From positions 1 to 64,000 of the forward strand of contig AGIG01000030.1 of assembly GCA_000227525.2 (NCBI GenBank): a stretch of 64,000 nt of DNA, in the 5' to 3' direction. Position 1 is the first letter of the stretch, and each line of letters starts with the position of its first letter. The translations under genes were made by a program, and so were the position numbers. The notes under the pieces were generated by a model that worked only from the letters and a program-made list of their open reading frames with translations, ran no database searches and had not been told where the DNA came from. This document shows, piece by piece, positions 131-21,097 of the stretch. This DNA comes from a gamma proteobacterium HIMB30. Lineage in GTDB: Bacteria; Pseudomonadota; Gammaproteobacteria; Pseudomonadales; Litorivicinaceae.

Positions 131-1087
131 ATGAAAAAAATATTTAAGCATTTAGCAGTAGCTTCAACTCTCGCTGTAGCATCGCTCACTGGTGTTGTTG
201 CAAACGCCGCGGGGCATGGCAACGAGCGTTATGTACTTGTGTCTCACGCACCTGATTCAGATAGCTGGTGGAACACCATCAAAAACGGAATCGCGCTCGC
301 TGGAGACCAGATGGGCGTGGAAGTCGAGTATCGGAATCCACCAACCGGAGACCTAGCTGATATGGCTCGTATTATCGAGCAAGCAGCAGCATCTAATCCT
401 AATGGCATCATCACCACACTCGCGGATTACGATGTTTTATCGGGCCCTATCAAGGAAGCAGTCGCGTCTGGCGTCGATGTGATTATCATGAACTCTGGAA
501 CCCCCGAGCAAGCACGTGAAGTTGGCGCGTTAATGTATGTCGGCCAGCCAGAGTATGACGCAGGCTACGCTGCCGGTCTGAGAGCCAAAGGCGACGGTGT
601 GAAGAGCTTCCTGTGTGTAAATCACTACATTAGCAGCCCATCGTCGACAGAACGATGCAAAGGTTTTGCTGATGGATTGGGTATCGACCTCGGTAACCAG
701 ATGATCGACTCAGGACAAGATCCGTCTGAAATTAAGAATAAGGTACTCGCATATCTTGACGCGAATCCAAAAACTGATGCGGTTTTAACGCTAGGTCCAA
801 CCTCAGCTGATCCAACACTCTTAGCACTTGACGAGAATGGCATGGCGGGTGATATCTACTTCGGTACGTTTGATCTTGGTACTGAAATCGTTAAGGGAAT
901 CAAGAGTGACGTTATCCAGTGGGGTATTGATCAACAACCATTCCTCCAGGCGTATCTTCCGGTTGTAGTCCTCGCTAACTACCATCGTTACGGCGTGCTA
1001 CCCGGTAATAACATCAATTCAGGTCCCGGTTTTGTCACCAAGTCAGGACTGACGTTGGTTGAAAAATTTGCTGGCGAGTACCGCTAA
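131..1087 (+). CDS. Periplasmic sugar/polyol-binding protein of a CUT2-type ABC transporter
   Basis: The solute-binding component captures a sugar or polyol in the periplasm and delivers it to the permease encoded next. The 318-residue product starts with a classical signal peptide: basic MKKIFKH, a hydrophobic stretch, and an Ala-Asn-Ala cleavage motif at residues 24-26. The mature part has the two-lobed ribose-binding-protein (Peripla_BP_4) pattern, with an early SHAPDSDSWWN segment typical of the ligand-binding N-lobe. The ATG at 131 is preferred to an upstream TTG at 83 because it has a GGAG ribosome binding site at 119-122 and gives an intact signal peptide. It is the first gene of an operon with permease, ATPase and iolB, so myo-inositol or a derivative is a reasonable substrate guess. 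The ligand cannot be read from the sequence. Confidence 0.9.
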   Translation: MKKIFKHLAVASTLAVASLTGVVANAAGHGNERYVLVSHAPDSDSWWNTIKNGIALAGDQMGVEVEYRNPPTGDLADMARIIEQAAASNPNGIITTLADYDVLSGPIKEAVASGVDVIIMNSGTPEQAREVGALMYVGQPEYDAGYAAGLRAKGDGVKSFLCVNHYISSPSSTERCKGFADGLGIDLGNQMIDSGQDPSEIKNKVLAYLDANPKTDAVLTLGPTSADPTLLALDENGMAGDIYFGTFDLGTEIVKGIKSDVIQWGIDQQPFLQAYLPVVVLANYHRYGVLPGNNINSGPGFVTKSGLTLVEKFAGEYR

Positions 1088-1109
1088 ACTAACTTTCAGT
1101 TAGATCAAT

Positions 1110-1134
1110 CCGAGGCACCTTCCGGGTGTCTCGG
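1110..1134 (+). promoter_or_regulatory. Intercistronic mRNA hairpin between binding protein and permease genes
   Basis: Bases 1110-1119 and 1125-1134 form a 10-bp stem (nine Watson-Crick pairs and one G-U) around a 5-nt loop, inside the 64-nt gap after the binding-protein gene. No U-tract follows, so it does not look like an intrinsic terminator. Hairpins in this position stabilise the upstream message in other binding-protein-dependent operons, giving an excess of binding protein over permease. That role is inferred here. Confidence 0.6.
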
Positions 1135-1151
1135 CTACAAGGATCAGTCGA

Positions 1152-2261
1152 ATGAGTGATTCAACTCAAGATGAACGAATTAAAAATATATCCCCACTAC
1201 GACAAGCTCTAGTTCGGCCGGAACTCGGAAGTATCGCCGGCACCATTATCGTCTTTCTGTTCTTTGGTTTCCTGGCCTTCGACAGTGGTATGTTTAGCCC
1301 CCGCGGAGTCCTCAACTGGTCAACTGTCAGCGCACAATTCATGATTATTGCGGTGGGTGCTTGCCTCCTCATGATCGCCGGAGAGTTTGATCTATCGGTC
1401 GGATCCATGATTGGATTCGCGGGGATGATGATAGCCATATTTTCAGTCACTCTTCAGTGGCCTGTATGGATCTCGATTTGCGTTACATTTGTATTATGTA
1501 CTGCGTTGGGAGCGCTCAACGGGTATATCGTCATCCGAACGGGTCTGCCTAGCTTCATCGTTACTCTCGCCTTCTTGTTTATTCTTCGCGGATTCACAAT
1601 CTTCTTTCCTCAACTAATTGAGAGGAAGACGATTATCGGGGGAGTCTCCGATGCTGCAGATGGCGATTGGCTCGCATCTCTATTCGGTGGAAAGGTGGGT
1701 GAACCCGTCTTCGTTTGGCTCGCTGATCTTGGATTAATCGACGTTTTCGAGCGTGGAAGTCGAGCTGGGCAGCCGGTCGTCGATGGAATCCCTGCGCTCA
1801 TTCTGTGGGCAATCGGTTTGGTCATTTTTGGGCACTTCGTATTAACACGGACCCGCTTCGGTAATTGGATTTTCGCCTCTGGAGGTGACTCGCAGGCGGC
1901 ACGTTATGCCGGTGTCCCGGTCAATCGGGTAAAGATTTTAATGTTCATGTTCTCAGCATTTTGCGCATGCGTCTTCGCAACATGTCAGGTCATGGAATTC
2001 GGGTCAGCCGGAGCAGACAGAGGTCTCCTAAAAGAATTCGAAGCCATCATCGCTGTTGTCATCGGAGGAGCTTTATTGACAGGTGGCTATGGAAGTGTCA
2101 TCGGGGCCGCTCTCGGTGCTTTGATCTTCGGCGTGGTTCAGCAAGGGCTATTTTTTGCCGGAGTAGAAAGCTCTCTGTTCCGTGTCTTTTTGGGCGTCTT
2201 GTTATTGGCGGCTGTGATTCTCAATACATATATTCGCCGAATTATTACAGGAGAAAAATGA
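1152..2261 (+). CDS. Sugar/polyol ABC transporter permease (RbsC/FrcC-like)
   Basis: This is an inner-membrane permease of the BPD_transp_2 (ribose/fructose importer) family, 369 residues with roughly eight to ten hydrophobic segments. A Gly-rich stretch near the C-terminus (about residues 296-330, AVVIGGALLTGGYGSV) and the GEFDLSVGS segment near residue 77 are typical of this family. A hydrophilic insertion of about 55 residues (about 155-210) makes it longer than RbsC and similar in length to FrcC-type permeases. The ATG at 1152 has an AAGGA ribosome binding site at 1139-1143. Its TGA stop overlaps the ATG of the ATPase gene (ATGA at 2258-2261), which suggests translational coupling. It should dimerise or pair with the ATPase to import the ligand of the preceding binding protein. 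Confidence 0.9.
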   Translation: MSDSTQDERIKNISPLRQALVRPELGSIAGTIIVFLFFGFLAFDSGMFSPRGVLNWSTVSAQFMIIAVGACLLMIAGEFDLSVGSMIGFAGMMIAIFSVTLQWPVWISICVTFVLCTALGALNGYIVIRTGLPSFIVTLAFLFILRGFTIFFPQLIERKTIIGGVSDAADGDWLASLFGGKVGEPVFVWLADLGLIDVFERGSRAGQPVVDGIPALILWAIGLVIFGHFVLTRTRFGNWIFASGGDSQAARYAGVPVNRVKILMFMFSAFCACVFATCQVMEFGSAGADRGLLKEFEAIIAVVIGGALLTGGYGSVIGAALGALIFGVVQQGLFFAGVESSLFRVFLGVLLLAAVILNTYIRRIITGEK

Positions 2262-3040
2262 CCATGGATCCATTGTTCGAAATGCAGGATGTAGAGAAAC
2301 ATTTTGGGACGGTCATAGCTCTTGGGGGTGTCAATTTTTCTGTTTCGGAAGGTGAGTGTCATTGCCTGCTGGGAGATAATGGCGCAGGTAAATCGACGCT
2401 GATCAAGACAATGTCAGGAGTACACGCACCGACATCCGGGCGTCTTCTGATGCGAGGCCAAGAAGTTCGGTTCGAAGATCCTCGGCAAGCTATCAGCCAA
2501 GGTATCGCAACGGTATATCAGGATCTGGCAATGATCCCGTTAATGAGTGTTAGTCGAAACTTTTTTATGGGTAATGAACCAATAAAGAGACGCTTCGGTT
2601 TCAACCTATTCGATCATGAGCGGGCCGACAAAGTCACCATGGACGAGATGCGTAAAATGGGTATTAATTTGCGTGGACCACACCAAGCGGTGGGGACCTT
2701 ATCAGGTGGTGAGCGACAAACGGTGGCTATCGCTCGCGCGGTATATTTTGGTGCAAAAGTACTGATTCTCGACGAACCAACATCGGCACTCGGCGTCCGA
2801 CAGACAGCAAATGTTCTTGCCACTGTAGATCGGGTCCGTAAAAACGGAATCGCGGTCGTTTTCATAACCCACAATGTTCGTCATGCGCTCGCCGTTGGTG
2901 ATCGATTCACGGTATTAAATCGTGGCAAAACACTGGGCACCGCCAATAAAGGCGAAATAACACCAGAAGAGCTCCAGGATTTAATGGCGGGCGGACAAGA
3001 GCTTGTTGAACTCGAGTCTTCCTTGGGAGGTACCGTATGA
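2258..3040 (+). CDS. Sugar ABC transporter ATP-binding protein (single-domain, FrcA-like)
   Basis: This cytoplasmic ATPase energises the importer. Within 260 residues there is a Walker A motif (GDNGAGKST, residues 39-47), the ABC signature LSGGERQ (148-154) and a Walker B/D-loop region ending LDEPTSALG (171-179). Ribose-type ATPases usually carry two fused ABC domains (about 500 residues). This one has a single domain, as in the FrcA branch, which agrees with the FrcC-like permease. The ATG at 2258 overlaps the permease stop by 4 nt and follows an AGGAG at 2249-2253; a second ATG at 2264 is also possible. Its own stop overlaps the iolB start (ATGA at 3037-3040). Confidence 0.9.
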   Translation: MTMDPLFEMQDVEKHFGTVIALGGVNFSVSEGECHCLLGDNGAGKSTLIKTMSGVHAPTSGRLLMRGQEVRFEDPRQAISQGIATVYQDLAMIPLMSVSRNFFMGNEPIKRRFGFNLFDHERADKVTMDEMRKMGINLRGPHQAVGTLSGGERQTVAIARAVYFGAKVLILDEPTSALGVRQTANVLATVDRVRKNGIAVVFITHNVRHALAVGDRFTVLNRGKTLGTANKGEITPEELQDLMAGGQELVELESSLGGTV

Positions 3041-3831
3041 CCTCGTTATTGGTCAAACCCAGCGCAAGATACGGAACCGTTATAGATATAACGCCAGAAA
3101 ATGCAGAATGGAGCTTCGTCGGCTTCAAAGTCGTTAAGCTCAAAGCCCAAGAGACCCACGAGTTCGAAACTAATGATAGAGAGTTTTGTTTAGTTCCGAT
3201 CACAGGAACATTTGATGCGCAACTTAGCGATAGCCGATTTGATGCTGTCGGCGGACGAGAGAACTTATTTGACCAAGAATTAACCGAGCATTTGTATGTG
3301 CCAGAACAGGAAACTGTAAAGTTAACCGCTCTAGACGAGCTCGAGCTGGCCCTCTGCTCTGCGCCGGGCGGATCATCTTTACCTGCTCGCCGGATAAAAA
3401 AATCAGATCAAACACAGAGTGCCCGCGGACAAGGCAGCAATACACGCTACATTCAGGATATCTTGCCGGAAACCCAGCCAGCACACTCCCTTCTTGTAGT
3501 CGAGGTTTTCACTCCAGCCGGACACTGGTCGAGCTACCCCCCCCACAAGCATTGTGTTGACAATATCCCTATCGAATCGGCGTTGGAAGAAACCTATTAT
3601 CATCGCGTTAACCCACCACAAGGCTTCGCTTTTCAACGCGTGTATACCGATGACCGATCAATCGACGAAACGATGGCTGTTGAGAATGGAGACTGTGTCA
3701 AAGTACCAGAGGGATACCACCCAGTCGGTGCAGCGCACGGTTATGATAACTATTACCTAAACGTAATGGCTGGACCAAAACGCGTCTGGCACTTTAAAAA
3801 CGATCCGGAGCATGAATGGATGATCAAATAG
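3037..3831 (+). CDS. iolB: 5-deoxy-glucuronate isomerase IolB
   Basis: IolB converts 5-deoxy-D-glucuronate to 2-deoxy-5-keto-D-gluconate in myo-inositol catabolism. The 264-residue product shows the cupin-type KduI/IolB signature: a PPHKH metal-binding segment near residues 168-172, a downstream EETYYHRVNP motif, and a conserved C-terminal HPVGAAHGYDNYYLNVMAGP region. The length is typical of the family. The start overlaps the ATPase stop by 4 nt and the end overlaps the dioxygenase gene by 16 nt, so it belongs to the transporter operon. No other iol gene (iolA, C, D, E or G) is in the window; they may lie to the left or elsewhere. The presence of IolB is the main reason to suspect an inositol-related substrate. 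Confidence 0.92.
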   Translation: MTSLLVKPSARYGTVIDITPENAEWSFVGFKVVKLKAQETHEFETNDREFCLVPITGTFDAQLSDSRFDAVGGRENLFDQELTEHLYVPEQETVKLTALDELELALCSAPGGSSLPARRIKKSDQTQSARGQGSNTRYIQDILPETQPAHSLLVVEVFTPAGHWSSYPPHKHCVDNIPIESALEETYYHRVNPPQGFAFQRVYTDDRSIDETMAVENGDCVKVPEGYHPVGAAHGYDNYYLNVMAGPKRVWHFKNDPEHEWMIK

Positions 3832-4820
3832 TTATCCACCATGACCAGAATGTAAGTGTAGACGAAATTCAGGAGCGGCTAGAGAATGGCGCCGGCGCCC
3901 TAATTATTCGAGGCGCCTATCAAGATCTAGCGTTGTTGGATTCAGTCTCGGACGCATTCTCTGAGCGAATACAAAGCGAGGGTAACCATGCAGCGGATCA
4001 TTTTGCTTCAGGTTCGAATCGACGGCTCTGGAACTCCCTCAACAAGTTAGCTGAAGATGCTCCTCATCTGTTTGCAGAATATTATGGCAACGAATGGTTG
4101 CATCGAGTCAGTGAGGCTTGGCTTGGCCCGCTATATCAGATCACCGCACAAGTAAACGTTGTAGTTCCCGGTGGCGCACCGCAGACCGGACACCGCGACT
4201 ACCACCTGGGCTTCTACCCTGAATCCCTTGTGGCAGAGATGCCTGATCTTATCCGCCGAGCCTCGTCAAAACTTACGCTTCAGGGCGCGATCATTCACTG
4301 CGACGTCCCGGTGGAGATGGGGCCAACTAAACTTTTACTTGGATCACAAAACGACAGCGATGGTTACCTCACCTACCGCCGGCCTGAAGAGCAAGAGCGA
4401 TTCGAACGTGAGTTCAGTCAAATTCCATTCAAAAAAGGGGATTTGGTTTTCTTTAATCCGAGCATCTTTCATGCGGCCGGTGGGAACAAGACCTCAAATC
4501 CAAGGCTCGTCAACTTACTGCAGATTTCGTCAGCCTTGGCAAAGCCCATGGAACACCTCGACTTCCCAGCTCTTGTGAGATTTGTCTATCCACACTTATT
4601 GAATAATACAGACAGAAACTTAGTTTCACGCGCAATCCGTGCGATGGTCGATGCATACCCATTTCCGAGTAACCTCGATCTAGACCCACCTAGTGACGAT
4701 TGGCTCGGTGAGCTTGAAACTACCTGGCTACTTAAAGCTTGGGAAACGAAAAGAAGTCCCTCTGAAGTTTTAAGCGATTACACAAATCGCCGGAATCGGC
4801 GTGTCTACCGTAGCGCATAG
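3816..4820 (+). CDS. Phytanoyl-CoA dioxygenase (PhyH) family Fe(II)/2-oxoglutarate oxygenase
   Basis: This protein is predicted to hydroxylate a small molecule using Fe(II) and 2-oxoglutarate. In the 334-residue product the iron-binding facial triad is visible: His126 and Asp128 in a GHRDYHLGFYP segment, and His219 in a PSIFHAAGG segment. Arg230 is placed to bind 2-oxoglutarate. A hydrophilic C-terminal extension of about 100 residues follows. The ATG at 3816 lies inside iolB and has a GGAG at 3807-3810. It is the last gene of the transporter/iolB operon, so its substrate is probably the imported compound or a catabolic intermediate. The substrate is not identifiable from sequence; oxidative O-demethylation of a methylated inositol is only a hypothesis. 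Confidence 0.85.
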   Translation: MDDQIVIHHDQNVSVDEIQERLENGAGALIIRGAYQDLALLDSVSDAFSERIQSEGNHAADHFASGSNRRLWNSLNKLAEDAPHLFAEYYGNEWLHRVSEAWLGPLYQITAQVNVVVPGGAPQTGHRDYHLGFYPESLVAEMPDLIRRASSKLTLQGAIIHCDVPVEMGPTKLLLGSQNDSDGYLTYRRPEEQERFEREFSQIPFKKGDLVFFNPSIFHAAGGNKTSNPRLVNLLQISSALAKPMEHLDFPALVRFVYPHLLNNTDRNLVSRAIRAMVDAYPFPSNLDLDPPSDDWLGELETTWLLKAWETKRSPSEVLSDYTNRRNRRVYRSA

Positions 4821-5045
4821 CTTATTAAACTACGTCAGCTGACCAACTTCATGACAAGCTAAGAGTTAATAGTCGAGGTTAAAACCTGACGAACGTTCAT
4901 GCGCGCCATTATTTTGCAAAAAGATTTCGTTATTCTCGTTGGTCAAAGCTGGAAAAGCGTTTGCCGACTGGAAAGACCTCGCGATGAAAGCCAGATGTTC
5001 GCAAAACTTTGTTTCAGAGGTGGACAAATATGGCCCATTAGGAAA
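4821..5045. other. Non-coding gap between the catabolic operon and tRNA-Lys
   Basis: These 225 bp hold no convincing gene. A short inverted repeat, AGGTT/AACCT with a 2-nt loop at 4876-4887, is too weak and lacks a U-tract, so it is not called a terminator. The stretch separates the + strand operon from the 3' end of the - strand tRNA-Lys gene and is where an integration junction would be expected if the operon was acquired. No integrase remnant or second copy of the tRNA end was seen here. Confidence 0.6.
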
Positions 5046-5121
5046 TGGTGGGTCGTGCAGGATTCGAACCTGCGACCAATTGGTTAAAAGCCAACTGCTC
5101 TACCAGCTGAGCTAACGACCC
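5046..5121 (-). tRNA. tRNA-Lys (anticodon UUU)
   Basis: Read on the - strand, the 76 nt fold as a standard cloverleaf. The acceptor stem GGGTCGT pairs with ACGACCC, the D-arm contains AGCTCAGCTGGTAGAGC, the anticodon loop CTTTTAA carries TTT, and the T-arm contains GGTTCGAATCC. Discriminator A and an encoded CCA (5048-5046) follow. The TTT anticodon reads AAA/AAG lysine codons. It sits directly after queC, as in Pseudomonas. Confidence 0.98.
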
Positions 5122-5203: not shown

Positions 5204-5905
5204 TTAGATTTTCGGAGAAATTCCGTCCTGATAATGAGTTGGGTCTGGTAGCCCTGCATCCATAAACCCTTTTCTCCGCAATCGACAGGCATCACAGGCC
5301 CCACAAGCTGCGCCATATTCATCCGCCTGATAACACGAAACCGTCAAGCCGTAATCAATACCGAGTGATGAACCGGCAGAGACAATGTCTGATTTGGACA
5401 TAGTCATGAGTGGGGCTTCAACAGACCAACGATCGCCACCATCAACCGCTGCTGTCGCAACGTTAGCCAAGCGCTCGAATTGTTCAATGAAAGCAGGACG
5501 ACAATCAGGATAGCCAGAATAATCAACCGCATTGGCGCCAATAAAAAGATGGCTGGCACCAATCACTTCACCATATCCTAAGGCGATTGAGAGAAACACA
5601 GTGTTTCGTGCCGGGACGTAAGTCACTGGAATCCCGGTATTGGCGACCCCTTCCACCGGCACATCAATGTCGTCACTGGTTAACGCAGAACCACCGATCG
5701 ATCCGAGATCGAGCCGAATGACCTTATGCGGGTGATCACTGAATGCGTCTGCAATTCGAAAGGCAGCCTTCAGCTCTGAATTGTGTTTTTGGCCATAATC
5801 AAAGCCGATGGTATAACAGTCAAACCCACGTGCTTTGGCCATCGCGAGAACCGTTGCTGAGTCCAGACCGCCCGATAGCAGAACCACCGCTTTGGATTTA
5901 CTCAT
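5204..5905 (-). CDS. queC: 7-cyano-7-deazaguanine (preQ0) synthase QueC
   Basis: QueC converts 7-carboxy-7-deazaguanine, ammonia and ATP to preQ0, the precursor of queuosine in tRNA. In the 233-residue product an ATP-pyrophosphatase loop SGGLDS (residues 11-16) opens the protein. Zinc ligands Cys191, Cys201, Cys204 and Cys207 lie near the C-terminus. The ATG at 5905 overlaps the queE stop by 4 nt (ATGA) and has a purine-rich GGAGAGGAGAG just upstream, so it is preferred to an in-frame start seven codons earlier. It is the last protein gene of the tol-que transcription unit, before tRNA-Lys. It works directly on the product of queE. Confidence 0.95.
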
Positions 5906-6555
5906 CGACCACTCTCCTCTCCCCAAATTTGCTTATGCAGTTGGAGCTGCATTCGGTATGGATGTCTCGATGATAAAATCAGTGATGCAAGCTGTTTCAA
6001 ATCAATCTCATCGTAGGATGGAGAAACCCACACCGCGCCCGCTTGAAAGACCGATGGATGCTGATCACAGAATAGCTCAAACCATCGAAAATCGTCGTCG
6101 CTGGTCACCACCACTTTGATCTGATCTTTAGGCTGGATCAGTGCCAAATTTGACAACAAGTTCTTCGACGATTCACCAGAGCCGGGGGTCTTGAGATCGA
6201 GGACGATTGATACTCGCTCATCAATCCCAGTGATATTCATTGCGCCTGAGGTCTCTAATGAGACTTCAAGCGCTGCATCGCAGAGTCTTCGTAGCAGCGC
6301 CCAGCAGTTCGGTTGTGCGAGTGGCTCACCGCCTGTCACACACACTCTTGAAACACCGGTGTCGAGTACCTCTCGAACAAGATCATCGATCGATCGTTGC
6401 GTACCACCCTGGAAAGCGTATTCACTGTCACAATAGACACACCGCAACGGACAACCTGTTAAGCGAACAAAGGTTGTTGGCAAGCCAGAGGTCAGTGCCT
6501 CACCCTGGAGGCTCGTAAAGACCTCGGTGATCCGGAGGCTCAAAGGCGCTGTCAT
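5902..6555 (-). CDS. queE: 7-carboxy-7-deazaguanine synthase QueE (radical SAM)
   Basis: QueE uses S-adenosylmethionine radical chemistry to contract 6-carboxytetrahydropterin to 7-carboxy-7-deazaguanine in queuosine biosynthesis. The 217-residue product has the [4Fe-4S] cluster motif at Cys35, Cys39 and Cys42 (CPLRCVYCD) and a glycine-rich SAM-binding GGEP segment near residue 77. The length is normal for the proteobacterial enzyme. It begins 7 nt after the cpoB stop and overlaps queC by 4 nt, so the two queuosine enzymes are probably translated together. No queD or queF is in the window. Confidence 0.95.
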
Positions 6556-10679: not shown

Positions 10680-11359
10680 TATTCACCCCGCTGATGGACG
10701 CGCCGATGCAGAATTGCCGCAAACTCATCCGAGAAATTTTCATAGGTCATGGCCAGACTATCGACCTTCGCGTTGAAACGGTTGTAAGCAATCACCGCCG
10801 GAATCGCAGCAAACAAACCAATCGCTGTCGCAACCAAGGCTTCAGAAATCCCTGGTGCCACCGTCGCCAACGTTGCCTGCTTGACAGCTGCCAGTCCACG
10901 AAACGAATTCATGATCCCCCAGACCGTCCCAAACAGGCCAATGTATGGGCTGATTGATCCAACCGTCGCGAGAAACGGAAGGTGTGCTTCGAGACGCTCC
11001 TCTTCCTTTGCGCGCGCAACTCGCATTGCGCGATGGACTCCCTCCATCACCGCATCGGGATCTGATTTCACATCCTGCCGTAGACGCGTGAATTCTTGAA
11101 ATCCCGCCTTAAAAACTGCCTCGAGTCCGATCAAGTTTGGTGAGTTTGCTACCTGTTTATACAGACCGACCAGCTCAGCTCCGCTCCAAAATGTATCCTC
11201 AAAGAGTCGTGCATGTTTTTGTGCCCGTGATAACACCCGGGTTCGTTGAAAGATCACAACCCAAGAGAAAACAGACGCAAGCACCAAAGTCGCCATCACC
11301 AGCTGCACAACGGGGCCAGCTTGTAACACCAGACTTAATATAGAGAGTTCTTCAGACAT
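10679..11359 (-). CDS. tolQ: Tol-Pal system protein TolQ
   Basis: TolQ is the ExbB-like inner-membrane component that, with TolR, converts the proton gradient into movement of TolA. The 226-residue product has an N-terminal transmembrane segment (about residues 12-34), a large cytoplasmic loop, and two further helices around 125-150 and 160-190. The conserved ISPYIGLFGTVWGIM and APGISEALVATAIGL stretches are present. The ATG at 11359 is taken rather than a TTG four codons upstream; it overlaps the ybgC stop by 8 nt. Confidence 0.95.
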   Translation of the reverse strand: MSEELSILSLVLQAGPVVQLVMATLVLASVFSWVVIFQRTRVLSRAQKHARLFEDTFWSGAELVGLYKQVANSPNLIGLEAVFKAGFQEFTRLRQDVKSDPDAVMEGVHRAMRVARAKEEERLEAHLPFLATVGSISPYIGLFGTVWGIMNSFRGLAAVKQATLATVAPGISEALVATAIGLFAAIPAVIAYNRFNAKVDSLAMTYENFSDEFAAILHRRVHQRGE

Positions 11360-20296: not shown

Positions 20297-21097
20297 TTAA
20301 TCAAAAATTGCAGCATCCGCCGGTATCCGTCCTGCCTCGACCATCCGGCGGAGCAAACGAAGCGCTTCGACCTGAATTTGTCGAATCCGCTCTCGTGTAG
20401 TACCTAATCGCTCACCAATTGCCGATAATGTTTCCCTGTCACGACCATCCAAACCGTAGCGTCGTATCACAACCATCCGCGGAAGATCAGGGAGCAGGTT
20501 AAGCCAGGCGGCGACATTCTCGTGATCTTCCTGACTCACAGCCAGCTCCTCTGGACTCGGCGCACCTGACTCCAGTAGATCAACACCCGTCGATCCATCT
20601 GAACCCTCAACCACCTGATCGAGTGAGACAATTTGCTCACTTGGGTTGAACCAGTGATCCATGTTGCGCTTTGCACATCCGGGCAAGGTCTCATTTTCAG
20701 CTTCAATCGCCTTCCGTTCCTGACGGAATTCACGCTGTTTATGGATCGGGGTTCGGATAGTTTTCACTTGATTCATGAGTGCCCGCTCAACGGCTTGACG
20801 AATCCACCAGGCTGCATAGGTGGAAAAGCGATAACTCATTTCAGGATCATATTTATCGACTACACGCATCAAACCAAGATTCCCTTCTTCCACTAAATCG
20901 GCAACATCCAGCCCACGGCCGCGATAGCGACCAGCCAAACTGATCACCAGTTTCAGGTTTCTCTGAATGAATTCCGTGCGGGCTTTGTGACAACCCTTCT
21001 GTACAAGACGACCCAGATCAAGTTCCTCCTTGGCAGTCATCAGTTCATGTTGGTTGAGATGGTTTAAGTAAGTTGCATTGGATAGTGAATCAATCAT
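20297..21097 (-). CDS. rpoS: RNA polymerase sigma factor RpoS (short form)
   Basis: This is a group 1/2 sigma-70-family protein, called RpoS from its place after nlpD and from the general-stress subfamily core. In 266 residues, region 2 (about 40-118) contains NLKLVISLAGRYRGRGL, DLVEEGNLGL and RFSTYAAWWIRQAVERALMNQ. Region 4 (about 200-255) contains RRYGLDGRDRETLSAIGERLG and TRERIRQIQVEALR. E. coli RpoS has 330 residues. Here region 1.1 is missing and the stretch between regions 2.4 and 3.2 (about 119-165) is around 20 residues shorter and poorly conserved. AAGGAGA precedes the ATG at 21097 and lies in a possible hairpin. Function in stationary or stress response is inferred. Confidence 0.82.
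   Translation of the reverse strand: MIDSLSNATYLNHLNQHELMTAKEELDLGRLVQKGCHKARTEFIQRNLKLVISLAGRYRGRGLDVADLVEEGNLGLMRVVDKYDPEMSYRFSTYAAWWIRQAVERALMNQVKTIRTPIHKQREFRQERKAIEAENETLPGCAKRNMDHWFNPSEQIVSLDQVVEGSDGSTGVDLLESGAPSPEELAVSQEDHENVAAWLNLLPDLPRMVVIRRYGLDGRDRETLSAIGERLGTTRERIRQIQVEALRLLRRMVEAGRIPADAAIFD

Follow-up and report, generated by a model that had tools for sequence, protein, structure and literature searches.

A probable P4-type integrase island for inositol catabolism at the 3' end of tRNA-Lys in gamma proteobacterium HIMB30

Genes between the contig end and queC

The window, that is the whole stretch of DNA analysed here, comprises the first 64,000 bases of contig C7 from a genome of 2.17 Mb in 36 contigs (G000), and its left edge is base 1 of that contig. 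Near this edge an operon at 131-4820 reads toward tRNA-Lys(TTT), the sole tRNA gene that ARAGORN detects in the 64-kb window. The following features were assigned.

1-130, no strand: contig end inside the island described below, between the importer operon and a divergent lacI gene (blastn against contig C18 of relative G018)
131-1087, plus strand: periplasmic sugar-binding protein (PF13407, 136 bits; closest to a rhizopine-type model)
1152-2261, plus strand: sugar ABC importer permease (PF02653, 154.1 bits)
2258-3040, plus strand: sugar ABC importer ATPase (PF00005, 113.6 bits)
3037-3831, plus strand: iolB, 5-deoxy-glucuronate isomerase (TIGR04378, 334 bits, cut-off 205)
3816-4820, plus strand: PhyH-family dioxygenase gene (PF05721, E 2.3e-22)
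4912-5028, plus strand: N-terminal remnant of an inositol-monophosphatase gene (tblastn, blastn; colinear with the intact PhyH-adjacent gene of G005 and G008)
5029-5045, no strand: 17-bp junction between tRNA end and gene remnant
5046-5121, minus strand: tRNA-Lys(TTT), the probable attachment gene, 3' end to the left (ARAGORN)
5204-5926, minus strand: queC, the last conserved backbone gene before the tRNA (match in 48 of the 57 genomes searched)

The sugar-binding protein scores 267.6 bits against the rhizopine-type model NF052284, which is under the cut-off of 420, and the PhyH protein of the window matched no NCBIfam family. Behind queC, away from tRNA-Lys, lie queE and the tol-pal genes, both named by eye. 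ARAGORN and the domain profiles thus confirm the arrangement described in a first-pass annotation of this DNA, in which tRNA-Lys adjoins queC and turns its 3' end toward an operon of ABC importer, iolB and PhyH. The 225-bp gap which that annotation had noted between the PhyH stop and the tRNA is also found, at 4821-5045; however, it is not empty, since it holds a gene remnant of 39 residues. Within 4912-5028, 19 of these 39 residues are identical to the start of an inositol-monophosphatase-family protein of G005, whose intact gene is PF00459. The tblastn score is 82, whereas none of 500 shuffles exceeded 43 and none of 392 other stretches of the window exceeded 48; the similarity extends to the nucleotide level (blastn, 72.7% over 77 bp, E 9e-5). 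In blastn comparisons of the 225-bp gap with G018 and G004, matches occurred only next to PhyH and none fell in the remnant. As the remnant stops 17 bp short of the tRNA, the tRNA-side end of the island appears to have been trimmed back. By eye and unscored, the 17-bp junction resembles what comes after the far-edge repeat of the window's genome. A palindrome resembling a LacI-family operator, again seen by eye, is close to the contig break in 1-130, which separates the importer operon from the divergently oriented lacI gene.

Extent and gene content of the island

Within the genus, synteny breaks off sharply at tRNA-Lys. In pairwise comparisons of 13 genus genomes, the 500 bp preceding tRNA-Lys matched in 78 of 78 pairs and the first 500 bp following it in two of 78, bearing out the earlier view of a conserved backbone on the right and a non-conserved left side. 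Because the window starts at the end of contig C7, the far side of the island is invisible from it, and it was found on contig C3 instead. When PhyH and IolB were searched in 57 genomes, the operon turned up beside queC and tRNA-Lys in three genomes (the window's own, G018 and G004), and at a different locus in G005 and G008. A test for family-wide synteny between operon and tRNA-Lys came out negative: PhyH occurs in five of the 25 family genomes searched (22 of the genus including the window's own, three of a sister genus; many incomplete), three times at tRNA-Lys and twice elsewhere.

Contig C18 of G018 carries tRNA-Lys and the entire island, and so does a single contig of G004, which matches the G018 island over 14,853 bp at 99.2% (blastn here and below, with matches of up to 60 bp dropped). 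The window covers 4,893 bp of the G018 island at 98.7% and the end of contig C3 in the same genome covers 9,930 bp at 98.9%. On C18 the window match ends at 10885 and the C3 match begins at 10895, leaving 9 bp between them. Judged by these alignments, the operon at 131-4820 is the tRNA-proximal third of an inositol island of about 14.9 kb, the remainder of which lies at the end of C3; the C3-C7 join rests on relatives, not on reads. That the window begins at a contig end might raise the suspicion of an assembly or binning artefact. However, two relatives hold tRNA-Lys and the whole island on one contig each, and both island parts of the window's genome match one of them at nearly the same identity, which leaves an artefact barely credible.

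The remainder on C3 encodes a LacI regulator, IolE-, IolD- and IolC-like proteins, a second IolB-like protein, a class II aldolase and three Gfo/Idh/MocA-type dehydrogenases, two of them scanned and the third read by eye. The iolB, iolC and iolD assignments exceed their family cut-offs; the IolE-like protein reaches 174.9 bits against a cut-off of 290, and the two IolG-like proteins scanned are both below theirs. We predict from these assignments that the island serves inositol import and oxidation by the Gfo/Idh/MocA dehydrogenases, followed by IolE-, IolD-, IolB-, IolC- and IolJ-like steps. The methylmalonate-semialdehyde dehydrogenase step of the pathway would be supplied from elsewhere in the genome, where a gene above cut-off lies at C7:97468-98901.

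At the other locus, in G005 and G008, the operon is 71% identical at the nucleotide level over 14.4 kb and comes after an iron-type ABC importer and the inositol-monophosphatase gene (named by eye except for PF00459); in G005 this set is preceded by pho-type genes, again by eye. G005 has queC and tRNA-Lys on another contig, with no operon match within the 2 kb compared there, and G008 gave no queC match. PhyH overlaps iolB, and the pair is kept together at both loci. The dioxygenase might act on a modified inositol. Relatives of PhyH are present in 47 plasmid records, all below 60% identity, five of which were viewed. In Agrobacterium and Shinella the gene is found in the vicinity of sugar ABC importers and of MocA- or IolE-type genes, in Ruegeria and Pantoea it lies beside or near a LacI regulator with no inositol genes in view, and the Caballeronia record carries no annotation. 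The notion of PhyH as a plain inositol gene was dropped.

Repeat, integrase remnant and scar at the island ends

On the far side of the island, G018 ceases to align with G004, G000 and G019 at its positions 20824-20827, exactly at a copy of the tRNA T-arm. The copy is identical to the tRNA at 17/19 positions in G018 and G004, 15/17 in G000, 17/18 in G019 and 11/11 in a scar in G012, the five repeats being related sequences rather than independent ones and those of G000, G018 and G004 a single shared inheritance. By local alignment, the repeated stretch in G018 and G004 corresponds to tRNA positions 53-71 (window 5051-5069), close to the span of 5046-5065 guessed in the first-pass annotation. 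A score as high is reached by at most 0.35% of 20,000 random 130-bp windows, tRNA genes included. Of the two things expected on the far side at first pass, a direct repeat of the tRNA end and an integrase gene, a short and imperfect repeat is thus present, but the island of the window's genome yielded no recognisable integrase; the only PF13356 match of this genome is on contig C32.

A trace of an integrase is found at the near edge of G018. Here, the last 46 bp of tRNA-Lys are present once more in identical form, followed by a 77-aa frame that represents a PF13356 arm domain (84.8 bits, cut-off 27) and then meets a stop. The domain begins about 175 bp past the tRNA 3' copy, on the tRNA side of the island, and G018 alone has it among the three carriers at tRNA-Lys; an integrase with its catalytic domain was recognised in no carrier's island. 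In G018 the interval between this remnant and the operon holds, at L053:5930-5975, what looks by eye like the 3' portion of a further tRNA on the opposite strand. No two of the three carriers have the same near edge, and in G004 4.9 kb with two caspase-domain (Peptidase_C14) genes separate tRNA-Lys from the operon. None of them therefore shows the near end in its original, intact form, and the arm domain left in G018 might come from a different element.

Both ends meet in G012, where pieces of them are fused within about 250 bp beside tRNA-Lys (87% over 171 bp, 84% over 91 bp). In G019, the sequence past the far edge resembles tRNA-adjacent sequence (91% over 33 bp in G011, 84% over 38 bp in G004), as would be expected if an insertion had pushed the old flank outward. 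A similar near end (81% over 327 bp), with an in-frame TAG in its arm domain, also occurs in G020 at tRNA-Asn; a 30-bp match to the far-end query follows 13.8 kb onward, with caspase-domain genes between. This far-end match is short and the tRNA-Asn repeat at it was read by eye only. Peptidase_C14 genes recur beside tRNA genes: the two at tRNA-Lys of G004 are in L055:2726-5695, and three were scanned in the tRNA-Asn element of G020, in L100:6975-15635.

The dissimilar near edges, the caspase-domain genes of G004 and the piece of the monophosphatase gene in the window, which neighbours the operon at the other locus in G005, would also fit a different course of events, namely that homologous or illegitimate recombination brought the operon into a region that was variable beforehand, the repeats and the integrase remnant being left from other, older elements around it. 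However, the far edge is homologous in four carriers and bears the tRNA repeat, and both end sequences are found jointly in G012 and, in less complete form, at another tRNA in G020. We therefore regard this course as improbable.

A broader and rather doubtful proposal is a family of non-autonomous islands that share two ends, carry unrelated cargo at different tRNAs and would still be moved between species of the genus in trans by a helper integrase. The near end of such islands would consist of TGACGGTAT-type repeats and a P4 arm domain, the far end of the same repeats and a tRNA copy, with inositol genes as cargo at tRNA-Lys and caspase-domain genes at tRNA-Asn. The 22 genus genomes, many of them incomplete, contain no intact close relative of the G018 integrase, the best intact one reaching 42-45% identity, and this speaks against movement in trans today. 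As a helper, the sole P4-type integrase of the window's genome was considered and rejected, being just 31-32% identical to the G018 remnant. Virus-borne copies were dropped as well: viral contigs yielded no PhyH relative and two arm-domain relatives at 44% and 61% identity, and nearly all arm-domain matches are below 60% identity (270 of 271 phage records, 463 of 477 plasmid records).

Recent movement and the tRNA-Lys hotspot

To date the island relative to its surroundings, synonymous divergence was compared between carriers. For 14 island genes (4,796 codons), dS is 0.034 between G000 and G018, 0.048 between G000 and G004 and 0.026 between G018 and G004. The corresponding backbone values are 0.207 (13 genes, 2,986 codons), 0.504 (12 genes, 2,428 codons) and 0.425 (11 genes, 2,309 codons), and within each of the three pairs single-gene values of island and backbone do not overlap at all. 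G019 was excluded, because its contig holds only part of the island and two rows hit paralogues (iolB1, iolG1). Island dS is thus six to 16 times below backbone dS, indicating that the island moved recently; homologous recombination alone could account for these low values. Composition was not used as evidence of foreignness, as GC content and codon use are close to those of the backbone. The cassette has 49.0% GC, as compared to 50.1-51.9% in 12 other 4.8-kb blocks, and two of the four cassette genes tested are ordinary in codon use. The other two deviate more than 43 of 44 backbone genes, so that the compositional check suggested at first pass gives little support.

The backbones of G000, G018 and G004 are 88-95% identical, and these three are more similar among themselves than to the remaining genomes that were aligned with G018, as might be found if the operon had been native at tRNA-Lys in an ancestor and was later lost by most relatives. 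However, the sparse distribution of PhyH with two of its five occurrences at another locus, the low dS of the island and the tRNA repeat at its far edge all speak against such a history, making it very unlikely.

Taken together, we favour the explanation that a P4-type integrase element placed the island of about 14.9 kb for inositol catabolism at the 3' end of tRNA-Lys, the cassette in the window being its tRNA-proximal third (probability about 0.86). Arrival by insertion at the tRNA end, as put forward in the first-pass annotation, is supported by features read directly from the aligned genomes: the boundaries on both sides, the far-edge repeat, the integrase remnant in one relative, the scar of two ends in another and the low divergence of the island. 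Mechanistically, an element with a P4-type tyrosine integrase would have inserted the inositol genes at the 3' end of tRNA-Lys by a crossover in the T-arm/acceptor half, which would keep the tRNA whole and leave a short tRNA repeat at the far edge. An integrase of the G018 type presumably did the inserting. The integrase side would have eroded afterward, differently in each genome, and in the window's genome a deletion probably ended inside the inositol-monophosphatase gene and took away the island's capacity to move on its own. Spread by homologous recombination may continue, and the recent transfer may have taken this route or have been driven by an integrase. The locus may thereby illustrate how an island becomes fixed, that is by erosion of its integrase side while the far edge stays.

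tRNA-anchored catabolic islands are a well-known class of element, of which this is a well-bounded but ordinary example. Bacteria commonly acquire new capabilities by insertions at tRNA gene ends. We take queC to be the neighbour of tRNA-Lys PA0976.1 in Pseudomonas aeruginosa too, and the tRNA-Lys of the window therefore probably occupies the same chromosomal site. PA0976.1 is reported as the insertion site of PAPI-2 and also of PAPI-1 (PMC4243448), which bears out the statement in the first-pass annotation that a tRNA-Lys of this species takes up PAPI-2-type islands. Integration at a tRNA-Lys is what these islands share with that of the window; however, they are integrative conjugative elements, whereas the present island has about 15 kb and a P4-type integrase remnant in a relative. 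No conjugation or partition genes were recognised among its 14 genes, 13 of which were profile-scanned and the last read by eye. P4-type (Arm-DNA-bind_3) integrase islands and phages are resembled by the G018 arm domain after a tRNA copy and by the tRNA repeat at the far end, but here the catalytic domain is lost and the 22 genus genomes hold no intact close relative.

In Salmonella, the inositol-utilisation pathway was gained as a unit with the island GEI4417/4436. The same appears to hold for the inositol island of Aeromonas hydrophila (PMC3835674). Both differ in their hosts from the present case, in which a PhyH dioxygenase lies within the unit. 'Ca. Methylopumilus' (Methylophilaceae) has an additive flexible genomic island marked by tRNA-Lys(CTT) repeats (PMC10872708). 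The likeness consists in small-genome aquatic bacteria, metabolic cargo and recurring copies of the last 20 bp of tRNA-Lys; the tRNA-Lys isoacceptor (CTT), the bacterial family and the cargo are different. For Pelagibacterales, another study reports transfer of a phnCDE-UbiE operon beside a tRNA and a tyrosine recombinase (PMC12416821), likewise an operon moved between marine plankton lineages and located next to a tRNA of the recipient, although operon and lineage are other ones. A further report concerns islands of Phaeobacter (PMC10256201). Among the open-licence papers listed for Litoricola or for inositol islands at tRNAs, none deals, by its title and the opening of its abstract, with the present island.

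The hotspot itself extends beyond the genus. Of 50 queC matches in the searched genomes, 30 were made into loci, and in 25 of the 29 loci outside the window's genome the distance from queC to tRNA-Lys is no more than 1.5 kb, including 10 of 13 from other families of the order; among the remaining four, one locus is truncated where its contig ends and in another tRNA-Lys follows at 3.3 kb. Thus, queC and tRNA-Lys are retained in other families of the order and the cargo behind them moved recently between species, which makes the locus a bounded case of one trait exchanged at a tRNA hotspot of a marine lineage. A conserved block behind the variable region (matches of up to 300 bp dropped) is in line with tRNA-Lys at a distance of about 15.1 kb in G012 and 26.7 kb in G001, and of about 71 kb in G000 provided that C3 and C7 are joined. 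It is inverted and about 120 kb away in G014, represented by weak matches only on another contig in G020 and by one weak match each in G018 and G004, and without a match in G005. Since the block is absent, weak or rearranged in these five other genomes searched, the far side of the hotspot is not conserved genus-wide. The variable region that holds the island also contains, outside its far edge, a purine-breakdown-like cluster (G000:C3:251786-260329), of which molybdopterin dehydrogenase subunits and a polysaccharide-deacetylase-family protein were scanned and allantoinase and urate genes named by eye.
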